Below, piece after piece: positions 24,554 through 28,014 of a DNA stretch of 33,655 bases. Both the position numbers and the translations under genes were made by a program. The notes beneath the pieces were generated by a model, which had not been told where the DNA came from, ran no database searches, and saw only the letters and a program-made list of their open reading frames with translations. Source of the stretch: a virus; the IMG/VR virus record IMGVR_UViG_3300034418_007197, positions 1-33,655 of that record, one strand, 5' to 3'. The number at the start of each line of letters is the position of its first letter. Within the stretch, counting starts at the first letter, position 1.

Positions 24554-24761
24554 CTCATTGTTGATCGACGTAGCGCGCGAGCTTTTACGAGATCAGCCTA
24601 AAATGTTCGCTCGTATTGAGTACGCTTTGACGCTGTCGATTGTTGAAGAGTTGTTTAAATATCGCGGTCAATCTGCGGAGAAGATCGCCGAGCGCTTGAA
24701 CTGGGAAGAGTCAAGGGTTGAGGCTTTTATTAATGATAATTGGAGCCGTTTAAAATTATGA
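24528..24761 (+). CDS. Hypothetical 77-residue HTH-like protein
   Basis: Start ATG 24528 lies within the SSB gene in another frame, with GGAG upstream. The C-terminal half has a possible helix-turn-helix ('QSAEKIAERLNWEESRVEAFI'). It overlaps the terminase small subunit by ATGA. Could be a DNA-binding accessory; not recognised. Confidence 0.5.
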   Translation: MTDEMIHSSSLLIDVARELLRDQPKMFARIEYALTLSIVEELFKYRGQSAEKIAERLNWEESRVEAFINDNWSRLKL

Positions 24762-25234
24762 AAAGTGATCTTGAAGGACTAGCAGAGAGAGAATCAATTC
24801 GGAACAATAACGCGCCTGCACAGACGCGCGCGCCCGCGCCCGTAGAAGCTAAATTAAAAGATCCAAGATTCATTGATTGTCTTGAGCGAATTAAAATGGG
24901 TCAGTCTATTCGTGGAGCTTGCGGGTTATCCAAGTTATCAACCTCTACACTTTATGAATGGATTGAAGCCCACCCAGAAATAAAAAAGATAGTTCAAGAC
25001 GCAAAAGATGAAGGTCTAGGAAATATTGAAACGCGGTTTATGATGGGCAGTGATAGCGACAACCCGACCGATTGGCGCGCGATGTCTTGGATGTTGGCGC
25101 GTAGATTCCCCGATGCGTACGGAGAGAAGAAAGAGTTGACGGTAAGCACTAATGAAGGCGCTCAAAAACAATTAGAGATGGTAAGCGCGATGATTGAGCA
25201 GACTAGTGAGCTGATGAATGAAGGTGACGAGTAA
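24758..25234 (+). CDS. Terminase small subunit (probable)
   Basis: 158 residues from ATG 24758 (ATGA overlap; TGGAG upstream); a TTG at 24740 is in frame but unlikely. After a Pro/Ala-rich N-terminus comes a helix-turn-helix of terminase type ('IKMGQSIRGACGLSKLSTSTLYEWI'). 'DWRAMSWMLARRFPDAYG' follows, a pattern frequent in phage small terminases. It would recognise the packaging site and direct the large subunit, encoded three to four genes downstream. Confidence 0.7.
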   Translation: MKSDLEGLAERESIRNNNAPAQTRAPAPVEAKLKDPRFIDCLERIKMGQSIRGACGLSKLSTSTLYEWIEAHPEIKKIVQDAKDEGLGNIETRFMMGSDSDNPTDWRAMSWMLARRFPDAYGEKKELTVSTNEGAQKQLEMVSAMIEQTSELMNEGDE

Positions 25235-25868
25235 ATATAAGCCGGGTTATCAATATCTAACTGAAGAATATTACCAAGTAATACTCAAGAGGCGGCGGTT
25301 GAAGCGGGCGAATGAATCACCCAGAGAGAAAGCTTTAAGGCGTAAACAGTTTAGAGAGTATCAAAAGGAAAGGCGGCGGTTGATCAATGAACGAAGCAAA
25401 GCGGCAATACTTGAAGATGTCAGAGGCGCAATATCAGAAGAAGTTAAGACAGCGCAGATTGAAGCGAGCCAACGAGACGCCAGAGGAGAAAGAAGCACGG
25501 CGCAAGAAGTTCAGAGAGTATCAAAGGGAATATCGAAAAAGGCAGAAGACATGAGCAGATACAACGAGGTGCGAAGAATCGCCAAGGCGACGAGCTACGA
25601 AGAAGATTTAGAAAAAGAAGAGGCTCGCCGCGCTCAACGGCTTAAACGTTATCGTGAAGACGGCGGCAGAGAGCGAAGGGCGCAAGCGTACCGAAACCGC
25701 AAGCGCTCGAAGCCTTCTTTAATAGATGAGCCGAAGCCATCAAAACCGGTGATTGATCGTTCAAATGATGTTTATCGAAAGGTCGCGACAAGGGCCGCGA
25801 TTGCTTATATGGAGTTAACGCCAGAACAGAGACTTGAGCGGATCCGGCGAGCATACGAGGGCAGATGA
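25218..25868 (+). CDS. Basic coiled-coil ORF, first copy of a tandem duplicate (reads through the second copy)
   Basis: The open frame gives 216 residues, very rich in Arg, Lys and Glu. Residues about 10-55 ('YQYLTEEYYQVILKRRRLK', then 'RANESPREK' and 'FREYQKERRR') match the product of a second frame at 25387-25554. Past residue 56 this frame crosses that second copy out of phase, so about residues 57-111 look overprinted. From 25551 it continues as what may be a separate gene. The functional first gene may be only about 55-60 residues. No known function; basic helices suggest nucleic-acid binding. It overlaps the terminase small subunit. Confidence 0.5.
   Translation: MKVTSKYKPGYQYLTEEYYQVILKRRRLKRANESPREKALRRKQFREYQKERRRLINERSKAAILEDVRGAISEEVKTAQIEASQRDARGERSTAQEVQRVSKGISKKAEDMSRYNEVRRIAKATSYEEDLEKEEARRAQRLKRYREDGGRERRAQAYRNRKRSKPSLIDEPKPSKPVIDRSNDVYRKVATRAAIAYMELTPEQRLERIRRAYEGR
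25387..25554 (+). CDS. Small basic protein, second tandem copy (different frame)
   Basis: 55 residues in the frame +1 to the surrounding ORF. It reads 'MNEAKRQYLKMSEAQYQ', then 'RLKRANETPEEKEARRK' and 'FREYQREYRKRQKT', paralogous to the first copy. Within the matching block most base differences are silent third-position changes in this frame (AAT/AAC, GAA/GAG, CGT/CGC, TTT/TTC), showing this frame is the coding one. Its TGA overlaps the ATG at 25551 (ATGA). Confidence 0.65.
   Translation: MNEAKRQYLKMSEAQYQKKLRQRRLKRANETPEEKEARRKKFREYQREYRKRQKT
25551..25868 (+). CDS. Small basic helical protein, possible third member
   Basis: 105 residues if begun at the ATG that overlaps the stop of the 25387 gene; same frame as the 216-residue ORF. 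It has 'EEARRAQRLKRYREDGGRERR', loosely like the two tandem copies, a Lys/Pro-rich middle and an amphipathic C-terminal helix ('MELTPEQRLERIRRAYEGR'). Its stop overlaps the methylase start. Unknown function. Confidence 0.5.
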   Translation: MSRYNEVRRIAKATSYEEDLEKEEARRAQRLKRYREDGGRERRAQAYRNRKRSKPSLIDEPKPSKPVIDRSNDVYRKVATRAAIAYMELTPEQRLERIRRAYEGR

Positions 25869-26644
25869 ATAGAAGAGCATTGATTAAACCGGCGGGGCTT
25901 GCATTCGCTTATTTTGGACATAAGATGAAGTATATTAATCGTTATCCAGTGCCAAAATATGACCATATTATTGAACCATTCGCGGGCGGCGCGGGTTATG
26001 CTCTGAGATATTGCGACCTTAAAGTGACGCTTTACGAACTAGATGAAAAGGTTTGTATACTATGGGATTATTTAATCAATGCTTCTGAGGCTGACATTTT
26101 AGCGCTTCCGCTTTTAAAGGTTGATCAACATCTTGAAGAATTGAATTTAACTGGTGGCGCTTTGGAGCTTGTCGGTCGTTGGATTAATCCGCAAAGCGCT
26201 ACAATTCAAAACAGATTTTCACCAGTACATAAGAAGTCAATTTTAGAGAATGAGAACGATTCAAGATATTGGGGAAGATCAAGAAGATATAAAATAAGTC
26301 AAATAGTAAAAAGGCTTAAGCACTGGAGGATTATAAATAAAAGTTACATTGAAGCCGTAAATACTAAAGCGTCATGGTTTATCGATCCGCCGTACGCTTC
26401 AAAAGTAAGTAAAAAATATAATCATCATACAATTGATTATGATCAACTCGCTTCTTTTTGCAGATCTCGAAAGGGTCAAGCGGTCGTTTGTGAGAATACT
26501 GATTCACCTCAATGGTTACCGTTTCGTGAATTGTTGACGCTGTCAGGAGGAAAGCAAGACCAAGGTAAAAAGAGAAAATCAACAGAGGTTTTATGGTGTA
26601 GCAATGATCAAGATTATCCCATGCAACAACAATCTCTCTTATGA
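25865..26644 (+). CDS. DNA adenine methyltransferase, D12/Dam class
   Basis: 259 residues; ATGA overlap on both sides. N-terminal 'KPAGLAFAYFGHKMKYI' resembles the motif X region of D12 enzymes. SAM-binding motif I is 'EPFAGGAG' at 37-44. The catalytic motif IV is 'DPPY' at 174-177. No restriction endonuclease is adjacent, so it is probably a solitary methylase that alters phage DNA against host restriction or times packaging. Target not shown by sequence; GATC would fit the Dam-like class and the frequency of GATC here. Confidence 0.85.
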   Translation: MNRRALIKPAGLAFAYFGHKMKYINRYPVPKYDHIIEPFAGGAGYALRYCDLKVTLYELDEKVCILWDYLINASEADILALPLLKVDQHLEELNLTGGALELVGRWINPQSATIQNRFSPVHKKSILENENDSRYWGRSRRYKISQIVKRLKHWRIINKSYIEAVNTKASWFIDPPYASKVSKKYNHHTIDYDQLASFCRSRKGQAVVCENTDSPQWLPFRELLTLSGGKQDQGKKRKSTEVLWCSNDQDYPMQQQSLL

Positions 26645-28014
26645 AACTTGAATACACCGCGCTACAAAAAGAATTAATAGCGGCGATCACTCAGAAGAAT
26701 GCTTTTGTAGCTGTTCGCGCGGGTTGGGGAGCGAGTAAAACAAGCGCGCTCGTGTTCGGTCTTCTTTATGTAGCAACGTGGCGACCGGGTACAAGTTCAC
26801 TATTGGTCACAGACACCGCGCCGCGTTATCGTTCTGTTTTAGGTCCGGAACTTGAAAAGTGGTTAAGTCCTCTTGGTTGGACATACAATCAACTAAAAGG
26901 GGAGTGGAAAGATCCAAATACAGGGAGTTCCATTTGGTGCCGTTCATACTTTCGACCGGGTACGAAGGAGAGCACTAGCAACCCGCTCGAAGGGTTGAAC
27001 ATCACTTCCGGCTTTGCCTTTATTGATGAATGTCAGGTCTTTCCATCGGCTGAGGTTGCATACAAAGCTTTAGGCCGTTTAAGATCTGGCCCTAGTCCTT
27101 GCCTTGTGATGGTCGGCTTACCTGTGAGCGATGCTTGGTGGGTCAAGCTTGCCGAACAAAGCGGCGGGCGCTGCTTGTTCTATTCTTCGCACGTCAACAA
27201 AGCTAACTTAAGTGATGAATGGTTTGAAGCTGTCAAGCATTTACCCGAGGCTGAACGGCTCGCGATGATCGAGAATAAACCGCAACCGCCGAGCGGTCTT
27301 GTGTTGTCGGAATGGACAGAAGGACACGTTATAGACAACTGGAAATATCGCGAACATCTTCAAGGGCGAATAGCAATAGACTGGGGATTCAGAAAGCCTA
27401 GCGTGTTGATCATTGTTCACGATCCAGACTTAAACGCAGACATAATCTGCGGAGAGTTGAACCCGCGCGAAGTGAGTCTTGATGACTTAGCGCAATTGAT
27501 CATGGCCATAGCTTGGCCGCGAAAGATCAAACAATATGCACCGTCGCCGCGCATCTGGCTTGATGATGGAGTGGCAGACAAAGCCGGGGCCGCTCGATCA
27601 GATCACTCTGGTATATCTGCCTTTCGACATCTTGGAAGCGATCCACCGAGAGGAATAGGGCTTCCTTTGAAGTGGACGACTGACCCAATCAGAACCAACA
27701 TTTTAAACGGAATACAAAAACTGAAACGCGCGCTCGCAAGAAAAGAATACTTAATTACTCGTGAGGTTTGGGAAGCGGGCGATCGAGCGCAGGGTAACAG
27801 CTTGCGTAAATCAATCATGTCTTATTCATGGGCCAACACTAAAGACGAGCCAGTAAAGGACGGTCGAGAAGATCCCATTGACGCGCTACGATATGATTGT
27901 ATTTTCTGGCGGTGGAATGATGACATTGAAAGAGCCATGTCAAGAGTGAAGGCGAGAGGGGCGAGCAGATCACGGCGGGTTAAAGTTGGCGGTCGAAAGT
28001 TTATTGACTTCTGA
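26641..28014 (+). CDS. Terminase large subunit
   Basis: 457 residues. ATPase: deviant Walker A 'RAGWGASKT' at 26-34 and Walker B 'FIDE' at 127-130. Nuclease: acidic residues in 'AIDWGF' (D247), 'WLDDG' (D308, D309) and a C-terminal 'DPIDALRYD'. These are the hallmarks of the packaging motor that cuts concatemers and pumps DNA into the head. It overlaps the methylase by ATGA and is the last gene before the terminators, so it is transcribed with the early/middle genes rather than with the head genes. Confidence 0.92.
   Translation: MKLEYTALQKELIAAITQKNAFVAVRAGWGASKTSALVFGLLYVATWRPGTSSLLVTDTAPRYRSVLGPELEKWLSPLGWTYNQLKGEWKDPNTGSSIWCRSYFRPGTKESTSNPLEGLNITSGFAFIDECQVFPSAEVAYKALGRLRSGPSPCLVMVGLPVSDAWWVKLAEQSGGRCLFYSSHVNKANLSDEWFEAVKHLPEAERLAMIENKPQPPSGLVLSEWTEGHVIDNWKYREHLQGRIAIDWGFRKPSVLIIVHDPDLNADIICGELNPREVSLDDLAQLIMAIAWPRKIKQYAPSPRIWLDDGVADKAGAARSDHSGISAFRHLGSDPPRGIGLPLKWTTDPIRTNILNGIQKLKRALARKEYLITREVWEAGDRAQGNSLRKSIMSYSWANTKDEPVKDGREDPIDALRYDCIFWRWNDDIERAMSRVKARGASRSRRVKVGGRKFIDF

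Follow-up and report, generated by a model that had tools for sequence, protein, structure and literature searches.

Loss of a stop codon followed by 3' elongation of the upstream gene is the commoner route to overlaps between genes on the same strand (Fonseca et al., PMC3887535), and such stop-loss overlaps are already well known. Overprinted pairs such as htgA/yaaW also use one stretch of DNA in two frames, the older of which accumulates silent changes; in that pair the genes overlap in antisense, and the claim is of a new gene (PMC2268670). STPR domains, described in silkworm FMBP-1, a eukaryotic transcription factor with four repeats, bind DNA (PMC4821344), and our literature search found no paper on a phage STPR protein. 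In the viral locus analyzed here, as in stop-loss overlaps (PMC3887535), an upstream gene without a stop appears to extend into a same-strand neighbor in another frame, but this neighbor is its own paralog and is crossed completely, and the extension fuses in phase to a third gene. As in htgA/yaaW (PMC2268670), one stretch carries two frames and the changes are silent in the older one, whereas the new reading is an unconserved linker.

The window, that is, the whole stretch of DNA analyzed, covers the 33,655 bases of one IMG/VR virus record, and all features discussed lie on its plus strand. The small genes sit after the gene for the terminase small subunit (24758..25234; PF20901, E 1.2e-6; phrog_4102, E 3e-12), which overlaps the start of the first of them, and before a DNA adenine methylase-like gene (25865..26644; phrog_56, E 2.4e-17), followed by the gene for the terminase large subunit, TerL (26641..28014; phrog_2, E 8.3e-13). 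A long ORF of 216 residues (25218..25868) comprises copy 1 of a small basic STPR-like coding region (25218..25386, starting at ATG 25218 or GTG 25224), a linker (25387..25550), and gene 3, which encodes a 105-aa basic protein (25551..25868) and whose stop overlaps the methylase start at 25865. In the +1 frame, the DNA of the linker encodes copy 2, a 55-aa STPR-like basic protein (25387..25554). Both ORFs are as the original prediction described them, and so is the junction with a third gene at 25551: an ATG lies there in the long-ORF frame and overlaps the stop of copy 2 as ATGA (25551–25554). No PHROGs family was found for the copies or gene 3, and an AlphaFold model of the long ORF is uninformative on function, being all helix (pTM 0.37) and matching nothing in the PDB below E 1. 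TerL has 59 relatives in IMG/VR, whereas none was found among deposited phages: neither the region as a DNA query nor tblastn searches with TerL (at 1e-5), an STPR gene, and the fused gene of a relative described below (L013) matched any of 50,697 deposited phage records, and a TerL search across bacterial genomes gave no match. Thus, the TerL relatives in IMG/VR represent an uncultured phage group.

A direct repeat (25292–25370 and 25452–25530, 71% identical over 79 nt) places the two tandem copies 160 nt apart, as had been claimed. In register, 56 of 81 nucleotides are identical, a level equaled by 0 of 20,000 codon shuffles, and BLASTP aligns the two proteins with 24/38 identities (63% of amino acids; E 1e-14 for this single comparison). 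On this similarity, copy 1 and copy 2 are paralogs. The further claim that they differ by mostly silent changes is generous and only partly borne out: within the 27-codon core, silent differences affect 11 codons and replacements 7, and divergence is larger outside it, since a gapless alignment of 48 codons at the 160-nt offset retains 26 identical amino acids.

Both copies resemble STPR-like (PF21107) basic repeat proteins, which are often encoded in tandem beside terminase genes. Like STPR repeat proteins such as FMBP-1 (PMC4821344), they show the basic ETPEE/Q...R repeat of about 23 residues; unlike these proteins, they carry one partial repeat each and fall under the 27-bit Pfam cut-off, copy 2 reaching 16.5 bits (E 0.012; residues 18–50 aligned to profile positions 8–40) and copy 1 giving no score, and tandem 23-residue repeats are found in neither. 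Several relatives do exceed the cut-off, including gene 1 of L005 (39.4 bits), and multi-unit STPR repeats are present in L056 and L080. L056, an uncultured phage, has four STPR-repeat genes in tandem (L056:911-2395), one of them at 109 bits, whereas L077 and L080 have two each; small overlaps join these genes. Since the STPR domains of FMBP-1 bind DNA and terminase genes adjoin the cassette, a DNA-binding accessory role near packaging is suggested for its proteins, by analogy only.

Relatives found in IMG/VR (L001–L005) show which frames are constrained. Across 25387–25550, the window and L002 differ at nine positions, all nine silent in the frame of copy 2 and all nine replacing in the long frame; the window and L003 differ at 23, of which 22 leave the copy 2 protein unchanged and 21 alter a residue of the long-frame product. 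Nei-Gojobori estimates for the window and L003 give dN 0.032 and dS 1.2 for copy 2, but dN 0.185 and dS 0.07 when the same DNA is read in the long frame. The silent and replacement pattern therefore marks copy 2 as a constrained protein. Conservation of the long-frame protein over this interval, on whose absence the original prediction had been staked, was not found: 40 of 55 residues are identical, against 54 of 55 in the copy 2 frame, and with dN above dS the linker does not behave as a conserved protein in a new frame. The same estimates are dN 0.047 and dS 0.54 for gene 3, and dN 0.016 and dS 0.243 for copy 1 (dN/dS about 0.07, from nine substitutions). Judged by the relatives, the three genes are all genuine, and each of copy 1, copy 2, and gene 3 is under purifying selection in its own frame. 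In addition, all relatives retain the ATG of gene 3, which in L005 is the sole start. Because of this start and the constraint on copy 2, separate products of both genes persist, as far as comparison of the relatives can tell.

The failure of copy 1 to terminate can be traced to its tail (25371..25390), which runs to the ATGA of copy 2 and is conserved in L001–L004. The distance from the last codon that both copies share (GAA) to the following ATGA is 16 nt in copy 1 versus 20 nt in copy 2; because of this 4-nt deficit in its tail, presumably due to a deletion, copy 1 is not stopped by the ATGA at 25387. The in-phase stop of ancestral type is still visible in copy 2 and in gene 1 of L005, both of which end in ATGA, whereas the ATGA of copy 1 is out of phase. 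The TGA at 25381 is in the +1 frame, as claimed, and is not a stop for copy 1; neither is a second TGA at 25388, within the ATGA, which lies in the third frame, and the frame of copy 1 meets no stop before 25866. An AGGCGG in this tail may be a ribosome-binding site for copy 2. Since copy 1 is constrained and lacks a stop of its own, its translation should by default run through into gene 3 unless a ribosomal frameshift intervenes. The tail also contains the second of two exact 13-nt repeats in copy 1 (AGGCGGCGGTTGA; 25290–25302 and 25371–25383, 81 nt apart), and this second occurrence forms its altered part.

Other relatives carry the cassette in different arrangements. L005 is about 90% identical to the window over copy 2 and gene 3, and in it a different, multi-repeat STPR-like gene precedes copy 2 and ends in an ATGA with the start of copy 2; its copy 2 contains a stop in the long frame, and gene 3 stands alone. 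In L013 (TerL 92%), an STPR-like copy and the gene-3 domain are joined in one frame as a single 149-aa ORF. As read from these records, the cassette is found in three states, namely three separate genes (L005), a one-frame fusion (L013), and an out-of-phase fusion (the window), any of which may have come first. Additional scans of IMG/VR, with gene 3, copy 2, or an alignment as the query, added no members to L001–L006 and L013.

We consider it probable that the stopless copy 1 runs out of phase through copy 2 and fuses in phase to gene 3. The starting point would be a tandem cassette of small STPR-like genes between the terminase genes, each start overlapping the preceding stop as ATGA; in the lineage of the window, the shortened tail would have deprived copy 1 of the termination offered by the ATGA at 25387. 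Ribosomes on copy 1 would then traverse copy 2 out of phase before entering gene 3 in phase, yielding a 216-residue fusion of the STPR-like copy 1, a charged linker, and the gene-3 domain, while copy 2 and gene 3 would also be made separately from their own ATGs. The linker sequence would be set by the codons of copy 2, and the one property of the linker that seems to be maintained is the lack of stops. In the overlap itself, the older frame has 22 silent changes and one replacement, and the only pointer to a reading in the long frame is the constrained, stopless copy 1. The original prediction had offered two explanations, either stop loss in the first copy with overprinting of its neighbor, or a long product that is an artefact of annotation; the relatives best support the former, and the latter is right only in that the linker is no conserved protein. 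We infer that the fusion protein accumulates and does something. More tentatively, the duplicated gene might have two uses, one as a protein in its own right and the other, when read out of phase, as a helical spacer free of stops between its twin and the third domain; selection would then act to keep stops out and not on the spacer sequence.

Two features set this case apart: the overprinting gene and the gene it overprints are paralogs, and the run-through leads to a type of fusion that L013 carries independently. The cassette thereby offers a testable case of a fusion protein arising through a neighbor without deletion of that neighbor. Copy 2 and gene 3 would be missed by gene callers that retain just the longest ORF.

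The long frame is open in five separate records (the window and L001–L004, about 90% to 100% identical in this region), which represent three distinct haplotypes. Random recoding of copy 2 with genome or nearby codon usage left it open in 0.005–0.016 of trials, a P value biased by the fact that openness itself drew notice to the frame, and 3.4 to 4.3 stops are expected with the nearby codon-usage sets. A neutral walk of 22 silent steps, free of this bias, stays open with P about 0.1–0.13, and recoding with the codon usage of copy 2 itself gives an open frame with P 0.27. At stop-sensitive sites, where a codon ending in T before AA, AG, or GA creates a stop in the long frame, T occupies none of 15 third positions in the window and none of 16 in L003, compared with 38% in 14 window genes; at the other third positions of copy 2 its use is normal (3/14 in the window, 4/13 in L003), so the avoidance is confined to stop-sensitive sites. 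In L005, T is present at 1 of 14 such sites, few although no openness is needed there, unless this phage recently left the fused state. Because the bias-free walk and the own-usage recoding leave the frame open so often, selection for openness of the long frame is suggested rather than demonstrated. Coordinated codon changes between the window and L003 were also considered as support and rejected, since mixing and matching of codons left 57% of mixtures open.

These figures bear on a passive run-through, according to which copy 1 is useful, its tail past 25386 is tolerated junk, the frame is open by chance, and the gene-3 part is idle. Such a situation would account for a linker that is unconserved as a protein and for the weak result of the unbiased test (P about 0.1), yet the complete avoidance of T at stop-sensitive sites beside normal usage elsewhere, together with the independent occurrence of an STPR–gene 3 fusion in L013, makes it unlikely in our judgment. 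It is quite improbable that copy 1 is a decaying remnant, with no expression of either copy 1 or the long ORF: the in-phase stop of copy 1 has been lost and the start ATG used in the window is absent from L003, but an ATG is present in L003 at the site corresponding to the start of copy 2, and from 25227 on the nine substitutions between the window and L003 comprise seven silent and two replacement changes, in line with the low dN/dS given above. Copy 1 could end normally if ribosomes shifted frame near its end and stopped at the TGA at 25381 (+1) or 25388 (-1), two stops that directly follow the homologous stretch and are shared by L001–L004; inspection by eye of 25350–25380 found no conserved slippery heptamer, however, and the A-rich run is altered in L003, which leaves a frameshift very improbable. 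A sequencing or assembly indel at 25360–25390, where a one-base change would bring copy 1 in phase with a stop, is hardly credible and is refuted by the relatives, as the length is the same in five separate records, some only about 90% identical, and the long frame is open in three haplotypes.

The surroundings of the cassette vary as well. In the window and L003, the methylase-like gene separates gene 3 from TerL; it is missing from this place in L005 and L013, whose gene 3 directly overlaps TerL; this difference is a mobile insertion or a loss. In other TerL relatives (L021:1014-1664, L035:368-877, and L036:3393-3950), basic proteins with repeated 'GxINPxTxxPY'-like motifs are encoded upstream of TerL, and those of L021 and L035 have STPR-like tails.
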